Source of the DNA: Deroplatys truncata
Taxonomy: Eukaryota; Arthropoda; Insecta; Mantodea; Mantidae
Direction: 5' to 3'
Length of the DNA: 64,000 bases
Assembly (NCBI GenBank): GCA_030765065.1
Contig: CM060978.1
Coordinates: 219,933,498-219,997,497, forward strand
A model generated the notes under the pieces. The model ran no database searches and was not told where the DNA came from. It saw only the letters and a list, made by a program, of their open reading frames with translations. A program made the position numbers and the translations under genes. This document shows, piece after piece, positions 3,597 to 63,089 of this stretch (positions are counted from its first letter, which is position 1; each line of letters opens with the position of its first letter).

Positions 3597-4424
3597 ACTT
3601 TCTCTACTACGTATAGTAATTAAGGGAAGTATTGTGTTCCACCCAAAAACTCGATACCGAGATTTCACCGGAAATATATGTTTTAAGGCCCCCCTGAATC
3701 CAAAAAAAAGCATTTTTGGAAACATATCCGTGTCTGCCTGTGAACAGCATAACTCGGAAACGAACAGTCGGATAAACATCAAACTTGGTATTTAGGTTCA
3801 GTATCTTCCAGAGATGCGACACGAAGGTGTTCAAGAAAATCCCCCTACCCCAGTTTACCCTTTACAAGGAACATTTTTCGAAAATTTTAATTTTCTCAGA
3901 AATCGCTTTAACGATTTTGATTAAAATATCCTATATTTAAGATACTTTCATGACAAATAAAATGTATATCTCGAATTCTCTGGGAATGTCTCCAAAAGTA
4001 TTCATTGTGAACGACTTTTGCATAACTGGTAAACCATGAGATAGACAAAATTTTATTACACAAAAAATGTAGATCGCGTTAAAATACACAATTTATGTCA
4101 TATACATCTTTTTTGTTGAGCGAACCGTTTTCGAGATATTGCTTGTTATTCCCTTAAATTTTCCAATACTTATACTTTTTCTCAAATGGGAATTCGTTAT
4201 TCATTTTTTTGCCCTGGTAATGCTAAGAGAATGGAATACTTCACATAGCAACCAGCTCTTAAAATATTTGACTATCGCTTAAAGCCCACCAATTTCCCTT
4301 GCATCTACAAGAAAATTAGCAATAAGATTAACATCTCGATTAACATGAAGCATATGGGGAATAAGCGTTTGTAGAAATAGTTTGTACAAGAGCAGGGAAA
4401 GTCATGTAAGTGTAACATATTAGA
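3597..4424 (+). mobile_element. Family H element, young, near complete
   Basis: It starts with ACTTTCTCTACT at 3597 and the ACGTATAGTAA palindrome. A short GTCTGCCTGTG block replaces the long microsatellite near 3730. The copy runs to the inverted block (agcagggaaagt, one of several mismatches) and a decayed hairpin, ending ATTAGA at 4424. The flanks are T-rich (GATTTTT before, TTATTTT after). No target duplication is discernible. Confidence 0.85.
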
Positions 4425-4642
4425 TTATTTTCATCTTCGTTGCTCAGGGAAAATAATATCAGAAAACGATTGTTCACACATGTCATTATGAGTCAGTAAT
4501 GCGTTATATTGAATACAGTAACAACCTGTTTATAATGTTAACATTGCATAAAAGAATATACTTGCGACTTTGCGTTGAGAATGCTATAGAGTAAACAATA
4601 GCCGGTGCTGTTATCTCCACAGAGAATGTGTGTAAAAAAATA

Positions 4643-5480
4643 TCCGATGTGTTGCACTCACATGACTTTTTCTACTCTTGTACAAACTATTTTTACAAGC
4701 ACTTATTTTCCATCTATTTTATGTTAATCGAGATAAACATTTGCAGAAACTATCTTAATGCTAATTTTCTTGTAGATGCAAGGGGAATATGGTAGGCTTT
4801 AAGCAATAGTCAAATACTTTAAGAACAGTTTGCTATGTGGAGCATTCCATTCTCTTCGCATTACCAGGACACAACAAAACGAATAACGAATTCTCATTTT
4901 AGAACAATTAAAAGTATTGGAAAATTCAAACAAATAAGAAGGAATATTTCGGAAATGGCTCATTCCACAAAAAAATGTATCAGACATAAATTGTGTGTTT
5001 TAACGAGCTCTACACCTTTTTTTGTAGAAAGATTTTTTCATCTCTTACGCTTTACTAGTTATGCAAAAACCATTTAGAAAGAAGACTTTTGCGGATATTT
5101 AAGATATATGTTTTATTTGTCATAAAAGTATCTTAAATATATCACATTTTAATCAAAATCGTTAGAGCTATTTTTTTTAAAACACTCAATTTTCGAAAAA
5201 TGTTCCATGTAATGGGTGTGGGATTTTCTTTAATATCTCCGTGTTGCATCTTTGAACGATACTGAATCTGAATATCAAGTTTGGTATTTATTCGACTTTT
5301 CGTTTTTGAGCTATGCTATTCACAGACACACAAGCAGACACACACGCACGGATCTTTTTCTAACAGTGCTTTTTTTGGATTCAGGGGGCCTCAAAACATA
5401 TATTTCCGGTGAAATCACGGTATCGAATTTTTGGGTGGAATGCAATACTTCCCCTCCTTACTATACGTAGTAGAGAAAGT
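4643..5480 (-). mobile_element. Family H element, moderately diverged
   Basis: Reverse-oriented copy. On the plus strand it opens with CCGATGTGTTGCACTCACAT (the hairpin end) and closes with TACGTAGTAGAGAAAGT. The CA-rich block is at about 5324-5350. It lies only about 220 bases from the opposite-oriented copy at 3597-4424, so the two hairpin ends face each other. Confidence 0.8.
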
Positions 5481-6499
5481 AATAAGGTAAAAGTTGCTGA
5501 TATTTCATTCTAAGAAACACACATACACAGTCACAATTTAGCAACTGAGAAAACAAAGGACACGCAAAAGACAATTACATTCTGCTTAAATGGTACCATA
5601 TTCTATGCAATCATTATTATTAACTGATAGTTTACTCAAATACTATAGATGTAGCGTAGGATACGCAGGATGTAGCGTCAAAACTTTTGAGTAAACCTTT
5701 TTCTGATTCTATAGAGGTATGCTGTGAAGCTTTTGGTGCAACAAATAATGATGCTTTTAATAATACTTATGTAAGAGAGTTTGCTACATTTCCTAATCAA
5801 GTTCATTACCAGAAAATTTTGACTTGTGTTATATCAAAATGTGTAACGATATTTGTAATTATGAACTTCAATTATTTTTTACCAATAGTTTCAATGTGCA
5901 ATTTTAGAAATGTTAAAACTGCTGCTCTGGAGTGGGATCTTCATATTTATCATTTCCACTCCTGCTGATATCAGGGGATGAATATAAATGCCAGGGGGTT
6001 CTGTATTATGTGAAATCTATTAGCCTTTTTATATTATATAACTGCAAAAGCAAAGAAACGCTACAAAATTTTAGTTTCACTTACTATGATTATTTAAGGT
6101 TATTCAAGTATTCCATTAATTCTTTCTTAAGTATTCCATTAATTAATTCTTCTTTAATTGTTAAATATTTTTAAAATGCTTACAGCATTTCAAGAGTTTG
6201 GAGGACTGCTGAAGGGTGAGGTTAAATAAATTAGAAATACAACATCTGTCGATGTTTCATACAATACTTTTTCGTGAGAATCAGGGGAGTTTTTGTCTGT
6301 GGTGAGGTTATCACGGTGTTTATTGCAGTTATAAGCTGCAAACCAGAGAATTCACCATAGAGGTCTTCTAATTATTTTACAACAGGTTCATAAAGAATGT
6401 GGGCGAGGCAATGAAATAAATTAATCGTATTTTGAGATTTAAGAAGCCACACTTGCAAGTCTTAAGAACAGCTAGTAAATGCGAGGTTTAATGGCTTAA
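5481..6499. other. No recognisable feature
   Basis: AT-rich DNA. A 93-codon frame at 5687-5968 has no recognisable domain, and I see no promoter or splice pattern that would support it as an exon. The tail end (about 6100-6180) has short TTAATT repeats. Confidence 0.45.
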
Positions 6500-7068: not shown

Positions 7069-7998
7069 TATGCAAATACTTTTAGATCAGCTGTAAATGA
7101 AGAAGTTACATGCTTTCATGAATTTTAAATACGTTAGAAATTACAGTGAACTTTATTTTCTATCAGATATCTAGAAAATAAATAAACAAGGTTTATTCGC
7201 TTCGGAAAAGAAAAGTAAACATATGGTTAGGACTTCAGCAAATTTTCTAGCGAACGTAATAGCATAGGTACAGAAAGAACCATTCGTAATGAAAGCAAGC
7301 GCAGACTCAACATTAACGGGAAGGCTTGCACCTATTTTATTTCACGAAAGCGTTCATAATGAACCACATAAGTGCTAGCACGCAAAACGTTTAAGCAAGA
7401 ATTTGCAAACTCCAAACTTTCATGCTTGTGTTGCGTATTTTAAAACGGCCCACGACCGCGACGCGAGATTTTATGCCACCTTCATACAAATGATCCCTGT
7501 TCCATATGGCCGTGCCTCAGAGGTTACGTTGCACATCCGTATAGCACTTATTCGCTCACTAATTTTACTAGCTTCAAGATCGCGCCGAATATAAACTGTT
7601 TCACTCAAGAGAGAAATATTCACACTGAACAAATCAACCCAATAACGTCTGCGCCAGGATCTGACGAACGTCACAAAAAGAAGCAAATGCAGACTGCATG
7701 CACATAAACAATTATAATCCCTATTTATATTCTAACTTTACTATAGGAAAAGTGTCGAAAGGAATATCATTTAACTCTATAGACGGTATTTATAAAATAA
7801 TTTTATAACCTGTGCTATGTTTGGCTTCGCGCTGACGTTTCATTGCGAATGGTATTATATTACGGCTGCGTTTACGGTGCAATATATAAGCGCCGCAATT
7901 TTATAGTGAGTAAAAGTTACAGTATTAAAGTGACAGGGGAGATAGAAGAGTACATCCGTTGTCGAAAGATCTTTAAAACACGCCATGATATTGAAAAA
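7069..7998. other. No recognisable feature
   Basis: Unassigned DNA, slightly less AT-rich around 7440-7690. Short frames on both strands lack known motifs. Confidence 0.45.
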
Positions 7999-9218
7999 TC
8001 TGATATGTTACACTCACATGACTTTCTCTACTCTTGTATAAACTATTTTTACACACTCTTATTCTCCATATGCTTCATGTTAATCGAGATATCGAGATGT
8101 TAATCTTATTGCTAATTTTCTTGTATATGGAAGGGGAATTGGTAGGCTTTAAGCGATAGTCAAATATTTTAACAGCTGGTTGCTATGTGGAGTATTCCAA
8201 ATTCTTTGCATGTCCAGGACAACAACAAAAAAATGAATAACGAATTCCCATTTGAGAAAAAGTATAAGTATTGGAAAATTTAAGGGAATAATAAGCAATA
8301 TCTCGAAAATGGTTCACTCAACAAAAAAAATGTATATGACATAAATTGTGTATTTGAACGCGATCTACAATTTTTGTGTAGTACAATTTTGTCCAGGTCT
8401 TATGGTTTACCAGTTATGCAAAAGTCGTTCACAATGAAGAATACTTTTGGAAACATTCCCAAAAACTTCGAAATATACATTTTGTTTGTCATGAAAGTAT
8501 CTTAAATATTCATTCATTCATTATCTGTTTACCCTCCTCTTATGTAGGACTTACACCCCCCAGGACTTACAAGCGGGTGCCTGGGGTCAGAGGTCCGTCG
8601 AGGAGCAGACACTCACGGATCAGACAGAGCATCCAGGATGGGTGATCAGCCCGATGCCTGGTATGGGATGAAGGAAGTAGATGAAACGAAATGTGGGTGA
8701 AATGGATGAAAGGAAAGGTGATGATGGAGCAGTTGGTGGAATGAATGGCGGGGGAAACCGGAGAACCCGGAGAAAACCCGCCCAGACGCCGCTTCGTCCA
8801 CCACAAATCCCACATGCAGGTCCCTGGGATTGAACCCGGGCCGCCTAGATGGGAGGCGAGCGGTCTAACCACTCGGCCACGGCGCCGCCCCTATCTTAAA
8901 TATATGATACTTTAATCAAAATCGTTAGAGCCATTTTTGAGAAAATTAAAATTTTCGAAAAATGTTCCATGTAAAGGGTAATCGGGTTGGGGGATTTTCT
9001 TGAAAACCTTCGTGTCGCATCTCTGGAAGATACTGAACCTAAATACCAAGTTTAGTGTTTATCTGTCTGTTCGTTTCTGAGACACACACACACATATACA
9101 CACACATCTTTTTTGGATTCAGGAGGCCTCAAAACATATATTTCCGGTGAAATCTCGGTATCGAATTTTTGGGTGGAATACAATACTTCCCCTACTTACT
9201 ATACGTAGTAGGAAAAGT
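7999..9218 (-). mobile_element. Family H element, young, split by a SINE
   Basis: Reverse-oriented copy. The plus strand opens TCTGATATGTTACACTCACA at 7999 and closes at 9218 with a slightly decayed TACGTAGTAGGAAAAGT. A SINE with its duplicated target (8498-8903) interrupts it. Removing the insert and one target copy restores a colinear family H sequence, which dates the SINE as younger than this copy. The microsatellite is short (about 9080-9105). Confidence 0.85.
8498..8903 (-). repeat. tRNA-derived SINE inserted in family H
   Basis: The body is 8510-8891, flanked by the exact 12-base direct repeat TATCTTAAATAT (8498-8509 and 8892-8903). On the minus strand it begins with a tRNA-Leu/Ser-like head (GGCCGAGTGGTTAGACCGC as box A, GGGTTCAATCCC as box B). 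It continues through TTTTCTCCGGGTTCTCCGG and ends in a (GAAT)n-type tail. Intact boxes and a perfect target duplication mark it as one of the younger insertions here. Confidence 0.92.
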
Positions 9219-9273
9219 AAAAAGACATTTCTAGGATGTTAGCAGTGAGCGAGTGTAATGCTCTCAATATTTG

Positions 9274-10002
<729 letters not shown>

Positions 10003-11664: not shown

Positions 11665-12848
11665 GCTAATTCGCCCGGTATGCTATGTTCCATAAAAATC
11701 TATTTGGCTATTTTATAAGATCACACATACACATCCGCGAGCGCACAAAACATCGCCAGACTTTTAAAAATACAAGTTTGAATTTCAGAGTAGCCATTAT
11801 ACACATGAGATTAAACATTTATCAAAGATCAAAAATTTTCAACTTTTTATACATATGGATAAATCACAACTTAGCGATATAACTGGGAAATAGTTTCTTC
11901 CTCGTGTTGTACGCTTTGATGACACACGCACACTCATATTTACTCGTACACATGCACAAAGCGGACTAGAGTCGGCAGTCAAGACTCACTAGAGCGATAT
12001 GCCTTAGCCTACCTGACCACTGGGAGTGGCATATATAGTCTGTCTAGAGTCTTTTGAGCCAGTGGAGAGGGAAAGGCAGGCTTCGTGTGGATGTACTTTG
12101 TTCTAGCTACTGTGCCGACCTTACGAATTCCTTATCTTCCTTGCTGGCTCAAAGACAGCGAACAGACAATAGGCTAAGCTAGTATGTCTTTGGTATCATG
12201 GCTATTCCTTCCGAGTTTTGACGTCAATCAGCTATTTTAAAGCTTAGGATAAAACAAATGAAAACGAAGGAGTAGAACATTGAGATAGAGTCAAAGAATA
12301 TATAAAAATTAAGTGTGGAGAAACAATTCCCATATGTGCTGATGATGGAGAAGTGCGGAAGTTCAAGAAGTGAATATACCAGCATAAAAGTTCAGAAAAA
12401 CTAGAGCAGCAGGATAAAAATTATATGAAGCGGGAGTAGTTCCTGCATAGGGTTAAGGAAAACGAGGAACGAGGTTAAACAAATCCCGAAGATCATTTCT
12501 ACAATCCTACCAGGAGCAATGAGATAGAGATTGCGCTCAGATCATCGAAAGAAGAGAGAAAATCAGGAAAGAAAAGAGCAACGTTTACATATCCTGGCAC
12601 ACTATCCAAGAAAATGTTCTCTCATTCGAGATGGTCTGGCAAATGAAGTTCAGGTAAGGATAGCAAGAGTGGAATTAATTTCAAATCCGATATTTTCGAT
12701 TTTCGATTCCGGGAACGGAAATGGGATTAGTTTGGGAAAGGAGATGGGCCAAGCATCTTGGTAATCGTATGTGGATTGGAAACCTCCATGACTAATATAC
12801 GAAACTTTCGATTACCCTGGGTGAATGAACTGCCTCTAGTTAATTGTT
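11665..12848. other. No recognisable feature
   Basis: Unassigned DNA. A GCATATATAG TATA-like string occurs near 12029, but I see no supporting gene structure. The frame at 12531-12764 has no known domain. Confidence 0.4.
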
Positions 12849-13065
12849 CCTTTCTGTACCACATATCTATTAAGTAGGGAAGTATTATATTCTGTCAAAA
12901 ACTGCATGTACAGATTTCAGCGGAAATACACGTTATAAGGTGCCCCCTGTATCAAAAGAAACAGTTTTTAGAAAAAGTCCCGCGTGTAATACGTGTGTGT
13001 ATGTGTGTGTGATAGAGAGCGACCATTATTCAAAACTACATGTCGGATAAATACCAAAGTTAGTA

Positions 13066-14229
13066 TAGGGTCTTTCAGCAAGTGTGTCCTATCTTTGAAC
13101 TTAAATAAAACACGTTCTATAAATGATAGAGGTTTATTTTTTTTGGAACATAATTAATGTCATTACGTGTGGAAGAGAATATCAGTTAAGTGACCGCCGC
13201 GACTTCGTTGGGTTTCGCGTAGTGTTATTCATAAGATCATTTACTGTTTCTGGCTTGTTGAATAAACTCGAGATTTAACATAACCCCACAAGAACTAATC
13301 CAACGGGTTAAATCACAAGACCTCGGGGGCCAGTTAACTTCACCACCACCGGAAATGATAAAACCTCTGAACTTCTCGTTCAAAAGATCGATTGTTTCGA
13401 GAGCAGTATGACATGTGGCACCATCTTGCTGGAACCAAATGTTTCTGAGATCCATACCATCCAATTAGGCCAAAAATAGTCCCATATAAGAGCCTGCTAT
13501 CTTTCTACATTGACAGAGCTTCTCCATCTTTATCTTGGAAAAAATATGGACCAATGATTCCACCTAACCAAAATCCACATCGTTCTTGATGGTCGTTCTT
13601 AAATCTGCATTGGATTATGATTGCTCCAATAGCGGCAATTTTGTGTTGTTAACACAACCATCCATCCAAAAGTGGGCTTCGTCGCTGAAGATCCGGGTCA
13701 CCTTCCAATTGCTCCATAACCCAGCCAGCGAATACACGGCGCAACCTATGGTCGTTGGGCTTTAGTTCACATCATTTTTTAAGCGTGAAACTTCAAATCC
13801 AGATGCAGAATTCGCCAAGTTGTGTTCGGCGAAAGCCCCAATTCTTGAGCTCGACGAGCAATTGATTTGTTTCCGTTCTCGCGTACACTCTCACGAACGG
13901 CGCCTATGTTTTCGTGCTTACGTCGACTACGTAAGGCGTTCTTTGACCGCTGACAAAACCACTTCTTTCAAATTTATCGATCAAATGTCGAATCGTTCTC
14001 TCGCAGGGACAATTATGCACACTTCACGAAATACACGGAAGGCCTGGCAAACAGATGATCCATTTTGATAATAAATTTTCACAATTTCTACGCGTTGCTG
14101 AATACTGTAACGTTTCATGGCTATTTATGAATAACAACTTTAACCACATGAAAAAAATGACTGCTGTAACTCAATAACAACGGCAGCTATCACATGTTAA
14201 AGATAGGACACTCTTGTTGAAAGACCCTT
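13066..14229 (-). mobile_element. mariner-like element with DD41D spacing
   Basis: The termini are imperfect inverted repeats. The left end begins TAGGGTCTTTCAGCAAG and the right end, reverse-complemented, begins AAGGGTCTTTCAACAAG; both continue into GTGTCCTATCTTT. TA duplications flank it at 13064-13065 and 14230-14231, as expected for the IS630/Tc1/mariner superfamily. The element sits inside an old family H copy and is therefore younger than it. It contains one decayed transposase gene on the minus strand. Confidence 0.88.
13240..14120 (-). pseudogene. Broken DD41D transposase
   Basis: The start is MKRYSIQQRVEIVKIYYQN near 14117, a helix-turn-helix-type N-terminus. The first catalytic Asp (SDEAHFW) is at 13681-13683. 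The second (WFQQDGATCHTA) is at 13423-13425. The third (CDLTPLD) is recovered only after a one-base deletion, at 13298-13300. The 122 bases between the second and third Asp codons plus the lost base equal 41 codons, giving DD41D, the spacing of rosa-type elements. The third Asp is followed directly by a stop (13295-13297). Further stops and frameshifts interrupt the N-terminal half. The protein would have cut and pasted the element at TA sites; this copy cannot. Confidence 0.85.
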
Positions 14230-14765
14230 TATTTAAGTTCAGTTTCTTCAAAATTTGCAACACGAAGATTTTTCAAGAAAATCACCCCACCCCAAACTAC
14301 CCTTTCATGGAATATTTTTCAAAATTCTCTATTCTCTCAAAAATTGCATTAACGGATTTGATTAAAATACTATAAGTGTATTTTGAATATTTACATGTCA
14401 AACACATACATATCTTGAATTTTCTGGGAATAACCTATGAAATATACTTCATTTGGAAGGAATTTTGTATAAATTTGTATAACTGGTAACCATTAGATAT
14501 TGATAAAGAACATACTACAAAATGTAGCTCTCTTTAAAATACAAAGTTTATTTCAGGCAACTTTCGGTGGCATCAGTCATTTGCGTGACATTCACTATTA
14601 TTTGTGTGTATCTTTCCATACCTGCTTGGTTATTTTCTGAAGTGCTGTCACATTCAGTTGTTCCTCGCGAAAATATGGAAAGATAAGACCAGTATATAGC
14701 GACCCGATTTTAAACATTTTACTATCTCTTCCGTTTCCTCTATCCCTCTTATTCCTACAATGAAG

Positions 14766-15190
14766 TGTGCGCGCGTTTATCTTGAGTAACTACATAGACA
14801 GAAAAATACATTTTTGTAAGAATAGTACCTAGAGGCTATTTAAAAATAAAGCATAATGGGTCCAGAAAGTCGTGTGAATGTAGTATATCCGTCTTCTTAA
14901 TTCCCGTAATATGACTTAGTCCGTCCACTAACAGTTAATATGCTCATTTGGTAAGATAAGCTCTTCACTTATTGAAAATCGATTTAAGGGACACAAAGCA
15001 TGCATATTTGGTCCAGAAAGCTTTTCTCTATCTCGCATGGATATAGTACCATAAGTAGTCAAAATGATATTGCAGATTTATGCAGCTAGATGTGAAAAAT
15101 GGGGTTTCATTATTATTCGCGCAATACAAAATCAGAATTTCACCTGCGCAGCTGTATATTAAATAGCTTGTGCTGTTCTGCGAATAAAAA
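14766..15190. other. No recognisable feature
   Basis: AT-rich DNA between an old and a young family H copy, with no motif seen. Confidence 0.45.
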
Positions 15191-15956
15191 TCTGATGTGT
15201 TACACTCACATGACTTTCTTTACTCTTGTACAAACTATTTTTACAAACTCTTATTCTCCATCTATTTCATATTAATAGAGATAAAAATTTGCAGAACGAT
15301 CTTATGACTTGCAAACAGAAATAAATTTTACACTATGCGAACAGTTCTAAAAATATTTGTTTTTTTACTTGCAAGGGCAATATAGAAATATAGTTGCCTT
15401 TAAGCATAGACATATCTCTTAATAGCTGGTTGCTATGTGCAGTGCCATTCTCTTTGTCACAGATTAATACTCTTTGCATATCCAAGACAAAAAAAATAAC
15501 GAATTCTCATTTGAGAAAATAAGTATTGGAAAATTTAAGGGAATAACAAGCAATATCTCGAAAAGGGTTCACTGCACAAAAAACCGTATATGACATAAAT
15601 TGTGTATTTTAACGCGATCTACATTTTTTGTGTCGTAAAAGTTTGTCTATCTCTTATGGTTTACCAGTTATGCAAAAGTCGTTCACAATGAAGAATACTT
15701 TTGAAGACATTCCCAGAAAATTCAACATATACATTTTATCTGTCATGAAAATATCTTAAACATATGATATTTTAATCAAAATCGTTAGAGCCATTTTTGA
15801 GAAAATTAAAATTTTCAAAAATGTTCCTTGTAAAGTGTAATCTGGGGTGGGGGATTTTCTTGAAAACCTTCGTCTCGCATCTCTGGAAGATACTGAATCT
15901 AAATACCAAGTTTGGTGTTTATCCGACTGTTCGTTTCTGAGTTATGCTGTTCACAG

Positions 15957-15991
<35 letters not shown>

Positions 15992-16122
15992 GACATGTTT
16001 CCAAAAATGCTTTTTCTTGGATTCAGGGGGTCGCAAAACATGTATTTCCGGCGAAATCTCGGTATCGAATTTTTGGGTGGAATACAATACTTCCCCTACT
16101 TACTATACGTGGTAGAGAAAGT
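15191..16122 (-). mobile_element. Family H element, young, long variant
   Basis: Opens TCTGATGTGTTACACTCACA at 15191 after an A-run and closes GTGGTAGAGAAAGT at 16122. The microsatellite is a CA run at about 15959-15989. The 3' half is the long variant, carrying the AGTGCCATTCTCTTTG and AGATTAATACTCTTTGCATA blocks. These are shared with the copies at 22845, 36351, 46172 and 59436 but absent from the short variants. Confidence 0.9.
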
Positions 16123-16339
16123 AATAACAACCTAATTCTTTCTTAAAGCAATACCAAAAGTAAAAATTTTTATGATAACATACTTCAATGAATTTGAAGT
16201 ATAACGGTGAGTTTCAAGTTTCAAGGTGACTGAATGGTATGTTGCTGTTGTGTTGAGTGTTGGCCTCATGGCAGCGACGGTTGTACGGTATGGTTTCCAA
16301 AAACAAGACGGAACACCATGCTGCGTGAATACGTTTCAA

Positions 16340-16702: not shown

Positions 16703-16732
16703 CTGTATTATCGTTTAGTAAGACTCATTATT

Positions 16733-17652
16733 ACTTTCTCTAATACGTATAGTAAGTAGGGGAAGTATTGTATTCCATCCAAACATTCGATACCGAGATT
16801 TCACCGGAAATATATGTTTTGAGGCCCCCTGAATCCAAAAAAGCATTTTTGGAAACATGTCCGTGTGTGTGTATGTGTGTGTGTGTGTTTGTCGTCTGTG
16901 TGTCTGTCTGTGAACAGCATAAATCAAAAACGAACGGTCGGATAAACAGCAAACTTGGTATATAGGTTCAGTATCTTCCAGAGATGCGACACGAAGGTTA
17001 TCAAGAAAATCGCCCCACCCCAGATTACCCTTTATATGGAACATTTTTTTAAATTTTAATTTTCTCAAAAATGGCTCTAACGATTTTGAATAAAATATCA
17101 TAAGTTTAAGACATTTTTATGGCAAATGAATTGTATATCTCGAATTTTCTGGGAATGTCTCCAAAAGTATTCTGCATTGTGAACGACGTTTGCATAACTG
17201 GTAAACCATAAGAGATAGACAAAATTTTACTACACAAAAAATGTAGATCGTGTTAAAATACACAATTTGTCATATACATTTTTCTTGTTGAGTGAACCAT
17301 TTTCGAGATATTGCTTGTTATTCCCTTAAATTTTCCAATTCTTATACTTTTTTCGAGATATTGCTTGTTATTCCTTTAAATTTTCCAATACTTATAGTTT
17401 TTCTCAATTGAGAATTTGCTATTCATTTTTTTTGTCCTGGTAATGCAAAGACAATGGAATACTCCACATAGCAACCAGCTCTTAAAATATTTGACTATCG
17501 CTTAAAGCCTACAAATGCTCCTTTCATATACAAGAAAATTAACAATAAGATTAACATCTGGATATCTCCATTAACATGAAGCATATGGAGAATAAGCGTT
17601 TGTATAAATAGTTTGTACAATAGTAGAGAAAGTCATGTGAGTGTAACATATA
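16733..17652 (+). mobile_element. Family H element, young, with internal duplication
   Basis: Starts ACTTTCTCTAATACG at 16733. The GT/GTCT microsatellite is at about 16862-16912. The segment TTTTCGAGATATTGCTTGTT occurs twice in tandem (about 17290 and 17348), a private duplication. It ends with the inverted block AGTAGAGAAAGT near 17621 and an eroded hairpin before a T-run at 17653. Confidence 0.87.
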
Positions 17653-17689
17653 TTTTTTTTTATTCCGATCGGATTAAAAAAAATGTTTC

Positions 17690-19910: not shown

Positions 19911-21145
19911 CACTACGTGATCAAAAGTATCCGGACACCTGGCTGAAAATGACATACAAGTTCGTGGCACCCTCTATCGGTGATGTTGGAAGTCAGTATG
20001 GTGTTGGCCCTTGATGACAGCGTTCACTCTCGCAGGCATACATTCAATCAGGTGCTGGAAGGTATCTTCGGGAATGGCAGCCCATTCTACACGGAGTGCA
20101 GAACTGAGGCGAGGTATCGATGTAGGTCGGTGAGGCCTGGCACGAAGTAGGCGTTCCAAAACATCCCAAAGGTTCTATAGGATTCAAGTCAGGACTCTGT
20201 GCAGGCCAGTCCATTACAGGAATGCCATTGTGGTGTAACCACTCCGCCACAGCCCGTGCAGTATGAACAGGTGCTCGATCGTTTTGAAAGATGCAATCGC
20301 CATCCCCGAATTTCTCTTCAACGGTGGGAAACAAGAAGGTGCTTAAAATATAAATGTAGTTCTGCGCTGTGATCGTGCCACGCAAACCAACAAGGGGTGC
20401 AAGACACCTCCTGGAAAATCACGGCCACACCATAACACCACCATCTTCGAATTTCACTGTTGGTACTACACACGCTAGCAGATGACGTTCACCGGGCATT
20501 CGCCATACCCACACCCTGCCATCGGATCGTCACATTGTGTACCGTGATTCGTCACTCCACACAACGGTTTGCCACTGTTCAATCGTGTAATGTTGACGCT
20601 CCTTACACCAAGCGAGGCGTCGTTTGGCATTTTCCTGCGTGATGTGTGACTTAAGGGCAGCCGCTCGACCATGGAATCCAAGGTTTATCACCTCACGCCT
20701 AACTGTCATAGTACTTGTAGTGGACCCTGATGCTGTTTGGAACTCCTGTGTGATGTTCTGGATAGATGTCTGCCTATTACTCTTTACGAACTTCTTCAAA
20801 TGTCGACGGTCTCTGTCAGCCAACAGACGAGGTCGGCCTGTACGCTTTTGCGCTGTACATGTCCCTTCACGTTTCCACTTCACTATCACATCAGAAACAG
20901 TGGTCCTCGTGATGTTTAGGAGTGTGGAAATCTCGCGTACAGACTTCTGACACAAGTAACACCCAATCACCTGACCACGTTCGAAGTCCATGAGGTCCAC
21001 GGAGCGTCCTATTCTGCTGTTTCACGATGTCTAATGACTACTGAGGTGGCAGATAATGAGTACCAGGCATTAGGTGGCAGCACAATGGACCTAAGATGAA
21101 AAACATATGTTTGTAGGGTGTCCGGAAACTTTTGATCACATAGAG
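19911..21145 (-). mobile_element. Tc1-like transposon, copy 1
   Basis: It is bounded by inverted repeats. The left end is CACTACGTGATCAAAAGTAT; the right end, reverse-complemented, is CTCTATGTGATCAAAAGTTT; both continue CCGGACACC. TA dinucleotides flank it at 19909-19910 and 21146-21147. The length (1235 bp) and the single minus-strand transposase fit the Tc1 family. A second copy lies at 34029-35268 in the opposite orientation. Confidence 0.95.
19974..21000 (-). pseudogene. Tc1-type DD34E transposase, broken
   Basis: The start MDLMDFERGQVIGCYLCQKS at 21000 opens a paired helix-turn-helix DNA-binding region, followed by a GRPR hook (KRTGRPRLL). The catalytic triad is visible: Asp in WSDESRY, Asp in QNDRAPVHTA and Glu in SPDLNPIE (codon 20173-20175), with 34 residues between the last two. 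Damage: an in-frame TGA at 20530-20532 where copy 2 has Trp, another TGA at 20419-20421, and a 2-base deletion just after the catalytic Glu that shifts the C-terminal tail (RLRARPHRP region). The catalytic residues are preserved but the frame is not, so the protein is inactive. Confidence 0.93.
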
Positions 21146-21147
21146 TA

Positions 21148-22844
21148 AGTGACCTTTAACAAATGTGCATTTCTTCCTTAGTGTAAAGTATAATATATAG
21201 AGAACTGAATGCAAAGACTGTAGAATGAGTGTAGTGGCTTTGATTGACCTCCTTAACTATGCGTAAAGGCTTGAAAGTATGGTAAATTTCCAGCAAATGG
21301 TGCGAAATTTCGCTTAAGATAAGTACGGTTGTCAGGTATGATGGTTGATGCTTAGCCAGATGTGCCTCCTAACTAATTTATGGTAGGTATTTACATCTTT
21401 TTTGATGTACACTGATAAAATGCAGAAAGCAATCATACGGTACAAAACATTTTTATCTGAAGTACTTGCCTGGAATAGTAATACATTCTCTAGTATTTTC
21501 CAGTTTACGATCTTAGCATATTGTATATATTTACATCAACAAGCCTCTAGGATTGATCGCTGCAAGCGTAACTGCATCGCATTTCCCTTTCGGTTATTAT
21601 GGCCCTAATCAACCCTAATGTTCTTGGAAATAAGTATAAATCACAAACTGCGGTTTTTAAATGTTACAATTTGAAATGCTAAGGAAAAGCTAGGATGAAA
21701 CTAATAAGCAGTTCCGAAGAGTAATAAGGCGAAAATAAAATGTTGTACGTTGTCACTAAGTTTTAGGAATTTAGAGAAAATGTATTCTTTCAAGACAGCG
21801 GTGGACACATTCACATAAAGTTCTCCTTAAACATGGAGGGAGAGCAGTTTGTCAGTTAATTGCAAATTCATTCCCATAGATAAAAGTGTGTTAACCCTGA
21901 AACATTTTGGGTAATAAGTGTCGTATAGATTCCGCATTTTCTAATTTTCATTTTCTCTTTACAAAATTTGAGATGAGTATTTCTTTAGGTAGAGATATTT
22001 ATACAAATATTCTGACAGAAATAACATTTTAAAACCTATAACACTTGGTATATATTTTGCGATATGCTCGATAGTAATGTATTAGATTTTTTTGAAGAGT
22101 TTTAGGTTTCTGTTTTACGATCGCTAGGGTTTTATCCTAATGTTTTTATCTGGTTATTACATTTGCATTTTACACAAGTATTAGTATGATCTAGTACATC
22201 TCGGCATGCTACTTCTCCGAGCTATAAATTCTTTGCGAAGGGTAGCGTTTACAACCAGCGACGAAAGTTTGGGGCCTTCGTTATCATCAGGCATAGGAAT
22301 TTTCAAGGATTAAAGCCAGAACAAAAGGAAATTAGGTTGAACTGTTACCGGGCACTTTCAGATCGGGTGAAATTAAAACTGGTTTGGGAATGCGTTATGC
22401 CCTGATTGTCCTATAATGTCGCAAGTGGCTTGAAATGCGGTTGGTGCCAAGACATCATGGCATCTATGAAAATGAAAAAGCTATTCAGCTGCTTAAAAGC
22501 TACTGAGATACTTATGTTGGCCCTAAACTCGTGGTGGGAATCAGTACACATACTCCCAAAACCTCGGTAAAAGAATGGATTAAACAAAACACCAGTTTAG
22601 ATGGCAAGCCTATCCTGGTCATAGAGAAGTCAGATGGCCTTAGGTCCACATAAAACTCTTTCCTCATCTCCGACATTCTCCTCTTAGAGTATCCCCCACA
22701 GCGCTGAAAGTATTATGTTATAAGTCCAACAGATATCACTCTTTCATACGCTTGCTCTAACGTAATGCTGGCAACATATGAATAACTAATGCCGCCAAAG
22801 CCGGTAAGATACTTAGCCTCAAAGCGTAGCCGATGGCTAGTTTT
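21148..22844. other. No firm feature; possible coding scrap at 22340-22660
   Basis: Mostly AT-rich. Around 22518-22640 the plus strand reads VGISTHTPKTSVKEWIK and KPILVIEKSDGLRST without a stop. That could be a scrap of a retroelement or host protein, but I do not recognise it. No other structure is visible. Confidence 0.35.
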
Positions 22845-23757
22845 ACTTTCTCTACTACGTATAGTAAGTAGGGGAAGTATTGCATTCCACCCAAAAATTC
22901 GATACCGAGATTTCACCGGAAATATATGTTTTGAGACCACCTGAATCCAAAAAAAGCATTTTTGGAAACATGTCCGTGTGTCTTGTGTGTGTGTGTGTGT
23001 GTGTGTCTGTGAACAGCATAACTCAGAAACGAACAATCGGATAAACACCAAACTTGGTATTTAGGCTTAGTATCTTCCAAGGATGCAACACGAGGTTTTC
23101 AAGAAAATCCCCCCACCCCAGATTACCCTTTACATGGAAGATTTTTTGAAAATTTTAATTTTCTCAAAAATGGCTCCAACGATTTTAATTAAAATATCAT
23201 ATGTTTAATATATTTTTATGACAAATAAAATGTATATCTTGAATTTTCTGGGAATGTCTCCAAAAGTATTCGTCATTGTGAACGACTTTTGCATAACTGG
23301 CAAACCATAAGAGATAGACAAAATTTTACTACACAAAAAATGTACATCGCGTTAAAATACACAATTTATGTCATATACATTTGTTTTGTTGAGTGAACCA
23401 TTTTCGAGATGTTGCTTGTTATTCCCTTAAATTTTCCAATACTTACACTTATTCTCAAATAGGAATTCGTTATTCATTTTTTTTTGTCTTGGATATGCAA
23501 AGAGTATTAATCTGTGGCAAAGGGAATGGTGCTGCACCTAGCAATCAGCTATTAAGAGATATGTGCCTGCTTAAAGGCTACTGTATTTCTATATTGCCCT
23601 TGTAAATATATATTCCACTTACATCTACAAGAAAATTAGCAATAAGATAGAGTCTGCAAATGTTTATCTCAATTAACATGAAGTAGATGGAGAATAAGCA
23701 TTTGTAAAAATAGTTTGTGCAAGAGTAGAGAAAGTCATGTGAGTGTAACACATCAGA
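22845..23757 (+). mobile_element. Family H element, young, complete (reference copy)
   Basis: The best-preserved long-variant copy. It starts ACTTTCTCTACT at 22845, followed by the small inverted repeat CTACTACGTATAGTAAGTAG. The GT microsatellite is at 22975-23007, then CGGATAAACACCAAACTTGG. A mid hairpin CTACACAAAAAATGTA lies near 23328. It ends with the inverted terminal block AGTAGAGAAAGT at 23724-23735, a hairpin (stem ATGTG/CACAT, 7-base loop) and CATCAGA. TTTT precedes it and TTTTTTT follows it. The repeat has no coding capacity. Confidence 0.95.
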
Positions 23758-23889
23758 TTTTTTTAGAAGGAGAGTAGTGTATCAAGTTGCGGCCTACAGC
23801 GACGACAGGGCGTTGCCGAGGGATCTGCGCGTCTAAAACTCGAATGATTCACTCCTTTTGATTTTATAAGCATTTTCAACGGGGATACT

Positions 23890-24116
23890 CTAAGAGGAGA
23901 TTGGCCCTCATCTCTCCTGAGATTGCCAAGCAAAGGAACAAGGAAAGTAGTTGCATTAATTTTGAATATGCTCACTTCAGGAAACATCTACGTAAAGTAG
24001 GACTCTACAAGGATGTACTCATTTGTAGAATGTGCAAAGAGAATGGGGATACTGCCTCGCAGTTCTCTTTGACTGCTGATTCCTGGCAAGAAAGAGATTT
24101 ACTCTATCTATAACCA
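23890..24116 (+). pseudogene. LINE ORF2 C-terminal fragment
   Basis: The plus strand encodes HFRKHLRKVGLYKDVLICRM, then CKENGDTASQ. This matches the C-terminal region of I/Jockey/R1-type LINE polyproteins, where GHxxLRKHLxxxGL is followed by a CxxC...H...C zinc-binding motif. Here the Cys pair CRMC is kept but the His position is Gln (TASQ) and the last Cys is lost. The reverse transcriptase and RNase H are absent. Confidence 0.65.
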
Positions 24117-27316: not shown

Positions 27317-27401
<85 letters not shown>

Positions 27402-27402: not shown

Positions 27403-28700
27403 TTATTTGAGCACTAAGTTATTACATATTTAGACTGCCTTCCCTATTTGGCCCTGGCCACTAGGATGAGCAGTCATTGTGAATTACAGTTACATGTTGA
27501 TACATTTACTAGTTCTTTTATTTATTTTTGTTTACATTATTTTTCCTCTTTTAACCATCCATATCCATTTATTTTTCGTTAAGTATTTACCCATATTTTT
27601 ACAGTTTTTATCTATTGTATGTATATCTTTATTCCTATTCATTCCATACCATAAACTTTCTTTTCTCCAAATCTCTGTTTCTTTGCATTAAAATATATGT
27701 TGTATATCTTTCCTTCCCCCACATAATGGACATTCACCTTGTGTGCATAGCCGTTTTGCTTCCCTTTTAGCCTCCATATTCCTGCCCTTAACCATGCTAT
27801 GCCTCCTCTTTCTTCTTTATTTGTGTTGTCAACATATTTCTCTCTTTCCCAGTGTTTTTTTTATATTAACATAAAAAATCAAAGATCTCTTCTGAGTTAT
27901 CTGACTAAATAATTGTTGTATCTCGATGTCCTCAAATCTTCTTCTAATACTCTTCCAAAAACCTTTGTGATTTGCATCTCTTTTCCTCCAAACATCTCCC
28001 ATGCCATTATTCTCAAGGTTATTTCTTAGTTCATTTACCCAGCCCATATTTTTTAAGCCAGTTTCTTGGTATTTTAGACATTGTTGTAATAAATTATTGT
28101 AATCAAAATTCAAGATGCTGTACCAATATTTCAAGGTTCTCTTCATAACCATTACTTTTCTTGTTACTCGTCCATTTCAATTTGAGCCACTTCATTTGCT
28201 GTAGCTGTTGGCAACCCTAGTACTTCCTTACAAAATATTCTGTGAACCATGTCCACCACTTTCCACCCATTTTCAAGCCCCCCATATTTCAATCCCATAT
28301 AACATTCGTGCCTCAACCGCTGTTATATAATCTTTCCAACCATTTCATCTCCAGCTCTGGCATTTAAATAAACATTGTCTAAGAGCTGTCATTGCTGCTC
28401 TCCCCTTTGCCAGAGCTGATCTCTTCTGTTTCTCCCATTTACCTCCTTCATCTATATTTATCCCTAAGTAGGTACAGTCTCGCACCACCTTATATTCATT
28501 TCTCCCTTTACTCCATCTCTCTTGCTTACCCAATTTCCCTCCTTTCTTAAACACTATAATATGTGTTTTCTTTTCATTTACATTTAGTCCCCATTCTATA
28601 CAGTATTTATCTATTTCTTGTAAGGACAATTTTAGTCCATTTACTGTAATGGATGCCACTACTAAGTCATCTGCAAAGAGGAGACCAGGTATCTGTACAG
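27403..28700 (-). pseudogene. LINE 3' portion: reverse transcriptase palm to zinc motif
   Basis: Reading the minus strand, IPGLLFADDLVVAS carries the FADD polymerase active site at 28666-28677. The thumb-side segment NEKKTHIIVFKKGG and CTYLGINIDEGGKW follow (frame 28345-28659). Further on come EARMLYGIEIWG, the long frame KYWYSILNFDYNNLLQQCLK (27829-28152) and finally ECPLCGGRKDIQHIF near 27715, a CxxC..H zinc-binding motif. This is the C-terminal half of a non-LTR retrotransposon ORF2 with the endonuclease and finger domains truncated. Frameshifts near 28340, 28280 and 27835 inactivate it. The enzyme class copies element RNA into DNA at nicked target sites. Confidence 0.87.
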
Positions 28701-28976
28701 ACAGTTATAGTAAAACTTTAGCACTCCCTTAGGGCAATGAAAGTCTTCTTTTCGCTTCAATTCTGATACATTAAAAAACCTAACATTTGATCTTTCTAGA
28801 GGTTGAACGAGTTCCCATTAGACTAGAATCAGGCTGTTGCTAGTATTTTAGATATCATAGTAATTGTGTGCTGGATTTAGCATGATTACGGTAATATACG
28901 TAACATTGCCATTTGCATTTGCTATATTGAAATTAGAAATAAAATAAAGTGAAGCACTAATAAAATGATGTACATA
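28701..28976. other. No recognisable feature
   Basis: Short AT-rich spacer between a LINE and a Penelope-like fragment. Confidence 0.4.
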
Positions 28977-34028: not shown

Positions 34029-35268
34029 CACTATGTGATCAAAAGTACCCGGACACCCCCACAAACATACGTTTTTCATCTTAGGTGCTTTGTGCTGCCA
34101 CCTACTTCCTGGTAATCATTATCCGTGACCTCAGTAGTCATTAGACATCGTGAAACAGCAGAATAGGACGTTCCGTGGAACTCACGGACTTCGAACGTGG
34201 TCAGGTGATTGGGTGTCACTTGTGTCAGAAGTCTATAAGCGAGATTTCCACACTCCTAAACATCCCTAGGTCCACTGTTTCTGATGTGATAGTGAAGTGG
34301 AAACGTGAAGGGACATGTACAGCACAAAAGCGTACAGGCCGCCCTCGTCTGTTGACTTACAGAGACCGCCGACATTTGAAGAGGGACGTAAAGAGTAATA
34401 GGTAGACATCTATTCAGACCATCACACAGGAATTCCAAACTGCATCAGTATCAACTCCAAGTACTATGACAGTTAGGCGTGAGGTGAGAAACCTTGGATT
34501 CCATGATCGAGCGGCTGCTCATAAGCCACACATCACGCAGGAAAATGCCAAACGACGCCTCGTTTGGTGTAAGGAGCGTCAACATTACACGATTGAACAG
34601 TGGCAAAAAGTTGTGTGGAGTGACGAATCACGGTGCACAATGTGGCGATCCAATGCTAGGGTGTGGGTATGGCGAATGCCCGGTGAACGTCATCTGCCAG
34701 CGTGTGTAGCGCCAACAGTGAAATTCGTAGGTGGTGGTGTTATGATGTGTTCGTGTTTTTCCTGGAAGGGGCTTGCATCCCTTGTTGTTTCGCGTGGCAC
34801 GATCACAGCGCAGACCTACATTGCTATTTTAAACACCTTCTTGGTTCCCACTCTTGAAGAGCAATTCGGGGATGGCGATTGCACCTTTCAACACGATCGA
34901 GCACCTGTTCATACTGCACGGGCTGTGGCGGAGTGGTTACACGACAATAACATCCTTGTAATGGACTGACTGCACACAGTCCTGACTTAAATCCTATAGT
35001 ACACCTTTGGGATGTTTTGGAACGGCGACTTCGTGCCAGACCTCACCAACCTACATTGATACCTCTCCTCATTCCCCACTCCGTGAAGAATGGGCTGGCA
35101 TTCCCCAAAAAAATCTTCCAGCGCCTGATTGAAAGTATGCCTGCGAGAGTGAACGCTGTCATCAAGGCTAAGGGTGGGCCAACACCATATTGACTTCCAG
35201 CATTACCGAAGGAGGGTGCCATGAACTCATTTTTAACCAGGTGTCGGGATACTTTTGAGCATGTAGTG
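34029..35268 (+). mobile_element. Tc1-like transposon, copy 2
   Basis: The left terminus CACTATGTGATCAAAAGTAC and the right terminus (reverse complement CACTACATGCTCAAAAGTAT) continue into CCGGACACC and CCCGACACC. TA flanks lie at 34027-34028 and 35269-35270. The length (1240 bp) matches copy 1 at 19911-21145, and the internal sequence is closely similar over the whole element. Confidence 0.95.
34175..35205 (+). pseudogene. Tc1-type transposase, catalytic Glu lost
   Basis: The ATG at 34175 opens MELTDFERGQVIGCHLCQKS. The helix-turn-helix region, the GRPRLL hook and the catalytic blocks WSDESRC and QHDRAPVHTA follow. A TAG at 34403-34405 replaces a likely Gln codon but the frame continues to 34969. 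There a one-base deletion (ATGGACTGA) truncates it. Beyond the shift the third catalytic position reads SPDLNPIV: the codon at 34999-35001 is GTA (Val), while copy 1 has Glu. The triad is therefore destroyed as well as the frame. The spacing to that position is 34 residues, confirming the DD34E class. Confidence 0.93.
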
Positions 35269-35755: not shown

Positions 35756-36117
35756 ATAAACAATTTATAGCATACACAGCGTGCCTTAAAGAAGGAGTTC
35801 CTATTTTTGAACTGAATTTGAAATATCTGTACTTCTCGCACTTGAAATAGGTTAGTTATGTTGTGTTTTTGTTACAATTTTAAATAATATACTGTTACGT
35901 GCTGGATAGATGGCGTAAAAGTTCACATGAAAATTAAATTAATTTGAGTAACCAGCACGCACATTGAGGGAAGGTATACTTACTTAGCTGCGTGGAAGTT
36001 GTGTGGAAGTTGAGAGGAAGGCGTGGGTTTTTCACTATACAAAATTCATAACACAACTCTACTCACACATTCCTAGATTTATTTCCCAACCGTTTGGGGT
36101 TCCTACATTATTAAACA
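35756..36117. other. No recognisable feature
   Basis: AT-rich spacer. Confidence 0.4.
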
Positions 36118-36350
36118 TCTGATGTGTTACACTCATATGACTTTCTCTACTCTTGTACAAACTATTTTTATAAACGCTTATTCTCCATATGCTTCATGTT
36201 AATCCAGATATCGAAATTGTCAATCTTATTGCTAATTTTCTTGTAGGTACAAGGGGAATATGGTAGGTTTTAAGCGATAGTCAAATCTTTTAAGCGCTGG
36301 TTGCTATGTGACGCATTCCGTTCTCTTAGCATTTCCAGGACATAAAAAAA
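36118..36350 (-). mobile_element. Family H element, 3' third only
   Basis: It opens TCTGATGTGTTACACTCATA at 36118 and runs through the short-variant 3' region to CATTTCCAGGACATAAAAAAA. The next, complete copy then begins at 36351. The remainder of this copy is not found beyond 37235, so it is truncated. Confidence 0.85.
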
Positions 36351-37235
36351 TCTGATGTGTTACACTCACATGACTTTCTCTACTCTTGTACAAACTATTT
36401 TTACAAACGCTTATTCTCCATCTACTTCATGTTCATCGATTTAAACATTCCCAGACTCTATCTTATTGCTAATTTTCTTGTAGAAGTAAGGGGAATATAT
36501 ATTTTCAAGGGCAATATAGAATTACAGTAGCCTTTGAGCACATACATAGCTCTTAATAGCTGGTTGCTAGGTACAGCACCATTCCCTTTGCCACAGATTA
36601 ATACACTTTGCATATCCAAGACAAAAAAATGAGTAACGAATTCCCATTTGAGAAAATAGGTATTGAAAAATTTAAAGAAGTAACAAGCAATATCTCAAAA
36701 TGGTTCATTCAACAAAAGAAATGTATATGACATAAATTGTGTATTTTAACGCGATCTACATTTTTTGTGTAGTAAACTTTTGTCTGTCTCTTATGGTTTA
36801 CCAGTTATGCAAAAGTCGTTCACAATGAAGAATACTTTTGGAGACATTCCTAGAAAATTCAAGATATACATTTTATTTGTCATAAAAATATCTTAAACAT
36901 ATGATATTTTAATCAAAATCGATAGAGCCATTTTTGAGAAAATTAAACTTTTCAAAAATTCTTCTATGTAAAGGGTAATCTGGGGTGGGGGATTTTCTTG
37001 AAAATCTTTGTGTCGCATCTCTGGAAGATACTGAACGTAAATACCAAGTTTGGTGTTTATCCGACTGTTCGTTTCTGAGTTATGCAGACAGACACACACA
37101 CACGGACATGTTTCTAAAAATGGTTTTTTTTGGATTCAGGGTGTCTCAAAACATGTGTTTCTGGTGAAATCTCGGTATCGAGGTTTTGGGTGGAATACAA
37201 TACTTCCCCTACTTACTATACGTAGTAGAGAAAGT
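36351..37235 (-). mobile_element. Family H element, young, complete
   Basis: Opens TCTGATGTGTTACACTCACA at 36351 directly after an A-run inside the preceding fragment, and closes TACGTAGTAGAGAAAGT at 37235. Long variant with the ACAGATTAATACACTTTGCA block. The microsatellite is minimal (CAGACAGACACACACACACG near 37084-37104). Confidence 0.9.
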
Positions 37236-37324
37236 AAAAATGGAAGGTGGGAAGGGATGTCCGTCGATTCAGAGCCCAGCTTTCACACGCGGTCCGTTCC
37301 TCACGCGATCCTAACTGAAAACGT

Positions 37325-37612: not shown

Positions 37613-38456
37613 TAAAATAGTTGCTCCATTCATGGCTCTGCCGTAAACATGTCAATATGAGAAAATACATTAGATTGTTTGGAAATTGCCTTCATATCTA
37701 TTCTAAACCTGGAATTAAACAGAAATAATCTCCAGGTAAATTTAACATAATGTATGACTTTGTCCTTTGTAATGAACTAAAATGTACAAAGAACACAGGT
37801 TTTAAATAAAACTTCTACAAGCTATAATAAAGGTTGTGTGCTTATATTGTGTTTCTCTGATTTTCTTGCTTTTATTTAAAAGTTGGAAGTGTAATCAATA
37901 TCTACAATTTAGGTCAATCTTCATATTTGTATTTCTGGAAGTTTTCATGTTAAGAGTTATTTTTTCTCTAGCTTTCATAATGCCGTAATATTTCAGATCT
38001 CAGACGTAGCGTGCTAAAACACTTGAGCGAGAAAGAGCTTGCCTCTCAAAAAGTTTTGTAATATAACCGTGTGTTGTTCTGAAGGACTCTTCGCAGCTAT
38101 CTGTTTTGTTGCCGAAGTAATCCGCATGCAAAACAAAGTACTTCATTTTTGGTTGCTATTGTAGTGTAGTGGAATACCACTCCGCTTAGAACTTAGTAAT
38201 ATCTCCAAGGAATTCTGTTCCCACACTGAAGTTTCAAAGTTATACATTGTTATATGTAGCACGTCTTGTTAACGATGCAGCTACAGAGAGCTTTCTAATT
38301 TTAGAAAAGTAGCAAGCAATTCTGCACAAAGTAAATGTTCCCTGTTACTCACAACTTGCACATGAATCTTGCACGATTTATGCACGCCTATATACAATAT
38401 AATTTAGGGGCTCCTTTTGAACAATTTGTATCATTCGGCGCTATTAGTTCATTTTT
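37613..38456. other. No recognisable feature
   Basis: AT-rich spacer without repeat borders or motifs. Confidence 0.45.
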
Positions 38457-39263
38457 ACTTTCTCTAGCACGTATAGTATGTAGGGGAAGTAATGCATTCC
38501 ACCCAAAAATTCGATACCGAGATTTCACCGAAAATACATGTCTTGAGGCCCCCTGAATCCAAAAAACGCATTTTTGGAAACATGTCCGGGTGTGTGTCTG
38601 TGTATGTGACTATGAACAGCATAACTCAGAAACGAATCATCGGATAAACACCAAACTTGGTATTTAGGTTCAGTATCTTCCAGAGATGCGACAAGAGGGT
38701 TTTCAAGAAAATCCCTCACCCTAGACTACCCTTTTTAATTTTCTCAAAAATGGTTGTAACGATTTTGATTAAAATATCTATATTTTAGATACTTTCATGA
38801 CAAGTAAAATGTATATCTTGAATTTTCTGGGAATTTCTCCAAACGTATTCTTCATTGTAAACGACTTTTGTATAACTGGTAAACCATAAGAGAAGACAAC
38901 ATTTTACTACACAAAAAATGTAGATCGCGTTAAAACACACAGTTTGTCATATACATTTTTTGTTGTTGAGTGAACCATTTTTGCGATAATGCTTGTTATT
39001 CCCTTAAATTTTCCATTACTTATACTTTTTCTCAAATGGGAATTCGTTATTCATTTTTTTTGTCCTGGTAATGCAAGGAGAATGGAATACTCCTCATAGC
39101 AACCTGCTCTTAAAATATTTGACTATCGCTTAAAGTCTACCAATTCTCCTTGCATGTACAAGAAAATTAGTAATAAGATTAACATGAAGCATATGGAGAA
39201 TAAGTGTTTGTAAACACAGTTTGTACAAGAGTAGAGAAAGTCACGTGAGTGTAAAACATCATA
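38457..39263 (+). mobile_element. Family H element, young, short variant
   Basis: Starts ACTTTCTCTAGCACG at 38457 after TTTTT and ends at a slightly decayed AAAACATCATA before TTTTTT. The inverted block GTAGAGAAAGT lies about 22 bases from the end. The microsatellite is reduced to GTGTGTGTCTGTGTATGTG. Confidence 0.88.
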
Positions 39264-39283
39264 TTTTTTCTATCACGTCAGGT

Positions 39284-42279: not shown

Positions 42280-42488
42280 TTTCTCGCGGTGTCATGAAAA
42301 GAGTATGAAATCTCAAGGCCAACATATGGAGACTTACGACTATCGGTTTTGCTTTGTGTATATCCCTTTTACCTACAACGACATGTGTAATGAACCTATT
42401 CCTTAAAGGTTTATTTCCATTAACATGAAGTAGGTAGAAATCGAAGTTTTCGTAAGAAAAGATTGTTGTAGGTAATTATTTTAAAAAT
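42280..42488 (+). mobile_element. Family H element, old, 3' part
   Basis: GAAATCTCAAGGCCAACATA, GACTATCGGTTTTG and TTTCCATTAACATGAAGTAG match the 3' half of old family H copies such as 57319-59059. A young copy begins immediately after, at 42489. Confidence 0.5.
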
Positions 42489-62144: not shown

Positions 62145-62220
62145 TAAGTTTTCTAAGAATAGCTTATAGAAACTATATATGTAGTAGGTAGAGAAATTCA
62201 TTGGAATGTTATAATATATT

Positions 62221-63081: not shown

Positions 63082-63089
63082 TATTTTTT

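Follow-up and report, generated by a model that had tools for sequence, protein, structure and literature searches.

The 64,000-bp stretch analysed here (the window), which begins at position 219,933,498 of contig C4 (CM060978.1) in the 4.29-Gb, 818-contig assembly of the mantis Deroplatys truncata (GCA_030765065.1), is rich in copies of a short repeat, family H, and raises the question of what kind of element H is and which protein moves it. The first-pass annotation had taken it for a non-autonomous Helentron mobilised by a Rep/helicase element elsewhere in the genome. Our analysis makes it very probable that H belongs to the HINEs, the non-autonomous Helentrons, as a DINE-1-like member built from the terminal modules of a Helentron in the same genome and moved by the protein of that element.

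A consensus of 871 bp, non-coding, was built from 13 near-full window copies, which diverge from it by 4.4–14.8%. The type copy, counted with its terminal T-runs, occupies 22841–23764 on the forward strand, as do all of its features given below, with four Ts before and seven Ts after a core (22845–23757) running from ACTTTCTCTACT to CATCAGA. As first annotated, the 12-bp motif at the very tip of the element (5' subTIR, ACTTTCTCTACT, 22845–22856) recurs as its exact inverse near the other end (3' subTIR, AGTAGAGAAAGT, 23724–23735, stopping 22 bp short of where CAGA ends). The microsatellite of GT/GTCT type was located at 22976–23011; it varies among copies, and GTGT outweighs GTCY. Two features went beyond the original list, namely an imperfect inverted copy of the 5' subTIR (IR, AGTAGGGGAAGT, 22867–22878; 10 of 12 positions in Watson-Crick pairs plus two G-T pairs), which starts 10 bases past the end of the 5' subTIR, and an internal T-run (23477–23485) that splits H into a left (L) module at 22845–23476 and a right (R) module of the TGTCTTGGATATG type at 23486–23757. 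With up to one mismatch, the 5' motif was found 35 times in the window against 0.46 expected from shuffles, none of 100 shuffles containing more than two. The claim that H is non-coding stood, in that none of the eight frames scanned against Pfam, out of 30 (at least 75 codons, mainly in H), reached the cut-off, and Rfam at gathering thresholds gave no match on H. The TC and CTRR ends of classical Helitrons are, as had been noted, absent from H.

Both ends of H carry potential secondary structures. The 5' subTIR and the adjacent IR can, as judged from their complementarity, form a 5' hairpin, which when folded as DNA showed a moderate excess of stability (z = −2.44; 7 of 200 shuffles equally good). 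The best pairing between subTIR and IR averaged 8.97 of 12 in a collection of 65 5' ends, compared with 5.91 when the downstream bases were shuffled; own pairs also exceeded swapped pairs (8.65), and none of 2,000 permutations attained the value for own pairs, a comparison that includes the effect of subfamily kinship. Likewise, with subfamily kinship again included, the two subTIRs of the same element matched at 11.07 of 12 positions against 10.83 for swapped pairs (n = 28 end-to-end elements; 9 of 5,000 permutations as high), and matched subTIR changes were seen in some old copies, such as ACTTCCTCTATC with GATAGAAAAAGT in the sampled stretch L021. Variation in old copies was 0.181 for the 5' and 0.168 for the 3' subTIR (the 3' segment measured off by one base) against a mean of 0.264, which places them at the 16th and 12th percentiles of 12-bp windows and makes their conservation above average, not exceptional; the 5' IR was less conserved than the body (0.314 vs 0.264). 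The annotated terminal hairpin, ATGTG-AGTGTAA-CACAT with a 5-bp stem (23737–23753), followed by CAGA and the T-run, is present, and all five pairs are intact at 12 of 21 window 3' ends, but its folding energy is no better than that of shuffled sequence (z = −0.22), so that the case for it is one of position and retention, not of energy.

The expectation of many copies in the window was borne out by an iterated H profile, which gave 40 matches over 20,240 bp (31.6% of the window). Copies recovered by both consensus alignment and profile lie at 3593–4431 (+), 4636–5482 (−, the most diverged of the 13 aligned), 15186–16124 (−), 16731–17659 (+, bearing an internal 50-bp tandem duplication), 38453–39269 (+) and 59432–60341 (+). 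The profile further delineated a copy at 7994–9222 (−) interrupted by a SINE-like insert (8510–8891) with a 12-bp target duplication, an old copy at 12847–14893 (+) split by an element with inverted ends (13067–14229), a composite at 36113–37239 (−) in which a full H is followed by an extra R module at the T-run (R|R), a copy at 46166–47123 (−) with a small internal inversion (46287–46390) and an old-subfamily copy at 55361–56122 (−). Three copies are nested in older ones: 42483–43335 (−) inside an older H of opposite strand, 53436–54226 (−) in a T-run of an older H (54326–53000) and 57835–58715 (−) in a T-run of an older opposite-strand H (57316–59061). At 62220–63779 (+) an old copy, its 3' end read by eye, and a young one (63086–63779) follow each other head to tail across one T-run. 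No Rep or helicase was found among the 50 of 134 window frames (at least 75 codons) scanned against Pfam; matches above cut-off were confined to Tc1-type transposase domains and a single reverse transcriptase, and the remaining scanned frames gave weak sub-cut-off matches or nothing.

Flanks were compared in 24 clean-ended copies out of 29 end-to-end ones, five having been dropped because the 5' end had over two mismatches or the 3' end over five. The T-rich surroundings reported initially were evident on both sides, with TT directly 5' of the element in 23 of the 24 and T directly after CAGA in 23 of the 24. Target duplications, whose consistent occurrence at a fixed length beyond the T-run would have spoken against a Helentron, were again not seen: none of the 24 shared 5 bp or more outside the T-run, none shared more than three bases between its flanks, and mean sharing outside T-runs was 1.13 bases for own flanks against 1.51 for swapped ones. 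A similar measure did return the 12-bp duplication of the SINE-like insert inside an H copy. An earlier, cruder test had given longer matches for own than for swapped pairs (2.93 vs 2.10), an excess that we attribute to interrupted T-runs. Uninterrupted sites related to the three nested window copies place each insertion in a T-rich run, the alignment for the copy at 43335–42483 being rough. A filled and an empty site were also found in two copies of the Helentron described below, where T6[H]T7 on contig C8 corresponds to T8 on C13 with flanks 98.7–99.8% identical; the full H in the C8 copy is a recent, precise insertion. All these empty sites are paralogous rather than orthologous. Genome-wide, 168,868 of 173,596 exact 5' ends were preceded by TT (97%; reversed patterns 0), a figure that is partly circular because the terminal Ts could belong to the target, the element or both.

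A longer element with the ends of H that encodes Rep, helicase and endonuclease, as predicted, is present in the same assembly. Searching for Helitron_like_N (PF14214; 291 candidates, 150 scored) gave 152 matches in the assembly and none in 14 control genomes; at least 18 Rep/helicase rows among the matches listed have a stop-free open frame at least 2,100 residues long. Two unlinked copies, on C13 and C8, were traced to their ends, leaving out the middle of the C8 copy, and domains were read in the C13 frame. Homology between the two begins at the outermost H 5' terminus (L033:238, L034:265) and stops at an H 3' terminus (L028:8251, L031:1273), beyond which the flanks differ on both sides; the elements span 11,578 bases (C13) and 12,527 bases (C8, including the extra H). 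From 5' to 3' the order is three tandem L modules (H 1–638, 1–637 and, in C13, 1–752), inverted and direct H pieces, and the frame. The 2,358 residues read in C13 contain Herpes_teg_N, DUF6570, Helitron_like_N, PIF1, Pif1_2B and UvrD_C_2 domains, which places Rep (PF14214, E = 1.4e-27) and a PIF1-type helicase (PF05970, E = 1.8e-28) in one protein; the helicase region has a further match in Helraiser (7lcc, E = 4.7e-23). A separate scan of the C-terminal 259 residues brought up Exo_endo_phos_2 (PF14529) at E = 2e-6 with 28.1 bits against a cut-off of 27.4, and PF03372 fell below its cut-off; the scan of the whole 2,358-residue frame at E 0.01 listed neither, and the region showed no clear solved relative by sequence. 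A C-terminal endonuclease is the published mark separating Helentrons from Helitron2 (PMC4067079, PMC5148889). Judged by its domains and termini, the partner is a Helentron of about 11.6 kb with a predicted protein of about 2,400 residues that unites Rep, helicase and endonuclease in a single frame, its endonuclease assignment passing narrowly. The protein (L028:3–7076) opens with the Herpes_teg_N domain, which we take to be a cysteine-protease fold. Since Helentrons are described as carrying OTU-type proteases (PMC4067079), this domain may be their counterpart.

These observations bear on what else H might be. High copy number, lack of coding capacity, inverted repeats near both ends and Tc1-type remains nearby would suit a MITE moved by a cut-and-paste DDE transposase, yet none of the 24 copies has a target duplication, the 3' repeat lies more than 20 bp inside the end instead of at the tip, and the longer element sharing the H termini codes for Rep/helicase; we regard this origin as extremely improbable, and the fixed-length duplication with inverted repeats at both tips that defines such elements is not seen in H. 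Nor did an element with a DDE transposase or reverse transcriptase and H termini come up in the sequences analysed here. Shortness, absence of genes, T-run ends and abundance could also describe a retroposon such as a SINE, but the lack of duplications, against 12 bp for the SINE-like insert in this very window, together with precisely conserved ends on both sides and no Rfam match, leaves a negligible probability for it, and the absent duplications and precise ends contradict such a reading of H.

A place within the wider Helitron group, as a canonical Helitron1 or as a Helitron2 whose partner lacks an endonuclease, has more to be said for it, in that terminal features by themselves cannot separate Helentron from Helitron2 in the accounts given by PMC3627910 and PMC5148889 and the endonuclease match is barely above cut-off. 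H nevertheless has no TC or CTRR ends and inserts in T-runs, not between A and T, and the C13 partner frame does show the C-terminal endonuclease match, so this assignment seems to us highly unlikely; the 5' TC, 3' CTRR and A/T insertion of canonical Helitron1 are all lacking in H. Finally, the Rep/helicase element might have acquired its terminal H sequences later, by insertion or, as an older Helentron, by capture, and another element might then have driven H originally. About 900 bases past the frame there is an extra, older-type H-like terminus of 38 bases with a slightly different subTIR (L028:7980–8017), directly followed by the R module (H 636–872); L modules are present three times on the 5' side, and H does insert into Helentron copies. 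Yet the two copies, at unrelated sites, share homology bounded by the outer H termini, as for one moving unit, and even the inner 3' terminus retains an H-type subTIR and stem-loop. We consider late insertion or capture unlikely and favour the descent of H from the Helentron's own ends.

By alignment, H corresponds to two terminal modules of this Helentron, a left one (about 638 bp) and a right one (about 237 bp), joined at the internal T-run. Identity to the H consensus is 96–97% for the three Helentron L modules and 92–93% for R; the L module of the type copy is 94.6% identical to one L module of the C13 copy, and its R module 85.6% identical to the C8 R module, a representative of the other R type. 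Genome-wide counts came to 77,101 for the exact L|R seam and 12,742 for the R|R seam, each with no occurrence of the reversed pattern; two R types appear among the L|R seam matches listed. Exact R|L and L|L joints number two and three in the 190 kb sampled and zero and zero in the window. Sampled array L014 contains head-to-tail H copies joined as CATCAGATTTTTTACTTTC, plus L|L and R|R joints. An origin of R|R composites solely by insertion of H into H with subsequent loss of one half was dropped, given that the same R|R order is found inside the Helentron itself. According to PMC4067079, HINEs derive from Helentrons by deletion, and tandem Helitron arrays, which that source cites, are thought to follow a bypassed stop signal. 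The joints fit rolling-circle copying, here a presumed process, with missed or alternative ends at T-runs. Tentatively, as a possibility that we rate somewhat below even, the family may spread by shuffling two T-run-bounded cassettes, L supplying a start signal, R an end signal and any T-run a joint; H would then be a recurrent minimal L+R combination, made at least twice with different R types and not a single deletion product, and the autonomous element would gain extra L and R modules by the same imprecise starts and stops.

Two further arrangements were seen on contig C1. Near the contig start, at C1:20306–122593, the L|R seam recurs every ~3,408 bases, at least 31 times among the matches listed, and this regularity makes H there part of a satellite-like array. 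L003 and L004, about 4 kb apart, show mirror-image patterns of H fragments, which suggests an inverted duplication or an assembly palindrome.

As regards mobilisation by a Rep/helicase element, the existence of such an element with H ends was confirmed; that its protein moves H, by rolling-circle copying, is what we infer. In the mechanism that we envisage, the Helentron protein would nick at the 5' subTIR of H, and one strand would be copied from there through the 3' subTIR, with the stem-loop and T-run acting as end signal. The single-stranded product would be joined into a target T-run with no duplication. Pairing of the 5' subTIR either with the neighbouring IR or with the 3' subTIR could be the switch that ends a round, a model already put forward in PMC3627910. 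Where a round ran past the first end signal or stopped at a different T-run, head-to-tail arrays and repeated L and R modules would result. A circular intermediate has been reported for one subgroup of Fusarium Helitrons (PMC5148889). A blind structural search of 254 kb for subTIR, IR, distant inverse, stem-loop and TT returned 90 matches, 71 of them H-type, against three in one shuffled set, with overlapping matches counted separately and H interiors masked in the real set only.

H shares with HINE/DINE-1 elements subTIRs in the 12–15 bp range, an IR, a 3' palindrome, a microsatellite, T-T insertion and a same-ended Helentron. Specifically, the account in PMC4067079 has the 5' subTIR, adjacent IR, microsatellite, subterminal 3' subTIR and 3' palindrome, T-rich insertion with the target left unmodified, and derivation from Rep/helicase/endonuclease Helentrons. 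H differs from the elements as described there in amounting to much more DNA and in fusing T-run-bounded L and R modules that are reiterated in the partner. Cg_HINE of the Pacific oyster resembles H in its 5' subTIR, complementary IR (1–12 bp away in Cg_HINE), 3' subTIR and palindrome, T-rich sites with no duplication and, in several cases, a GTCY-type microsatellite in the left flank (PMC7492417). Unlike Cg_HINE as presented in that source, H lacks a central array of satellite type and has an identified partner sharing its ends. Non-autonomous Helentrons, although common, can be orphaned, as in the oyster study, which was unable to link Cg_HINE to a partner (PMC7492417). H and Helitron2 have in common asymmetric terminal inverted repeats, hairpins at both ends, of which the 5' one includes the 5' repeat, and insertion after Ts (PMC3627910), but Helitron2 is characterised in PMC4067079 as having no endonuclease and the frame of the H partner has one.

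In the whole 4.29-Gb assembly the exact 20-mer of the H 5' end occurs 173,596 times. The window, with nine such ends where the genome average predicts about 2.6, is richer in H than most. In nineteen 10-kb stretches taken at fixed spacing from C1–C4 (190,000 bases), the H profile gave 105 matches covering 36,972 bases (19.5%; bootstrap 95% range 11.8–28.8%, median 13.9%), compared with seven matches and 440 bases in a reversed-sequence control. Old relatives included, the H family makes up about one fifth of the DNA sampled and would, if the sample is representative, total around 0.8 Gb. In 129 rows of at least 150 bases, a set biased towards young copies by eight loci that had been selected for an exact 5' end, divergence from the profile consensus was two-peaked, near 3–9% and 21–30%; the two peaks suggest two waves. 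Exact H end patterns (28–34 bases) had no match among the genome contigs or viral contigs searched, and no viral carrier was seen among them.

High Helitron content has been reported in some grasshoppers (PMC7754599, PMC7486953), and for morabine grasshoppers, whose assemblies measure about 4 Gb, the Helitron share is given as about 17–22% of assemblies and 23–29% of reads (PMC7754599). The scale of H is not unprecedented for the class, given such shares, with the difference that the grasshopper figures cover all Helitrons and the 19.5% found here one HINE family and its old relatives. The kind of element to which H belongs is known; what stands out in H is the unusual scale, the partner and the modular ends, and it suggests how so much of a 4.3-Gb genome can consist of a single gene-less family. 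The assembly combines an abundant HINE, complete same-ended Helentron copies and many long open frames, which offers a natural setting for testing what the 5' hairpin, 3' stop signal, joining at T-runs and endonuclease each do.

Several other elements were encountered in and around the H copies. The SINE-like insert at 8510–8891 has, besides its 12-bp target duplication, an ATGA-type tail and a start that looks tRNA-derived; Rfam at gathering threshold gave no match on it. Two Rfam tRNA matches that were not called by ARAGORN (60643–60715 and 61216–61288) are perhaps SINE heads. The element inside the old H copy, at 13067–14229, starts with AGGGTCTTTCA at its inverted ends and looks mariner-like; the one frame scanned in it (13766–14065) matched no Pfam family. 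Two broken Tc1-type transposase genes lie at 20047–21021 and 34154–35190, and a reverse transcriptase fragment (RVT_1, E = 6.9e-8) at 28348–28704. Perfect trinucleotide arrays comprise 36.7 copies of CTA (9274–9383) and 28.3 copies of TAA (27317–27401). The H type copy is flanked by a 17-bp inverted repeat, CCTCTTAGAGTATCCCC / GGGGATACTCTAAGAGG, read by eye at 22680–22696 and 23881–23897, and given this repeat it may lie inside another element.
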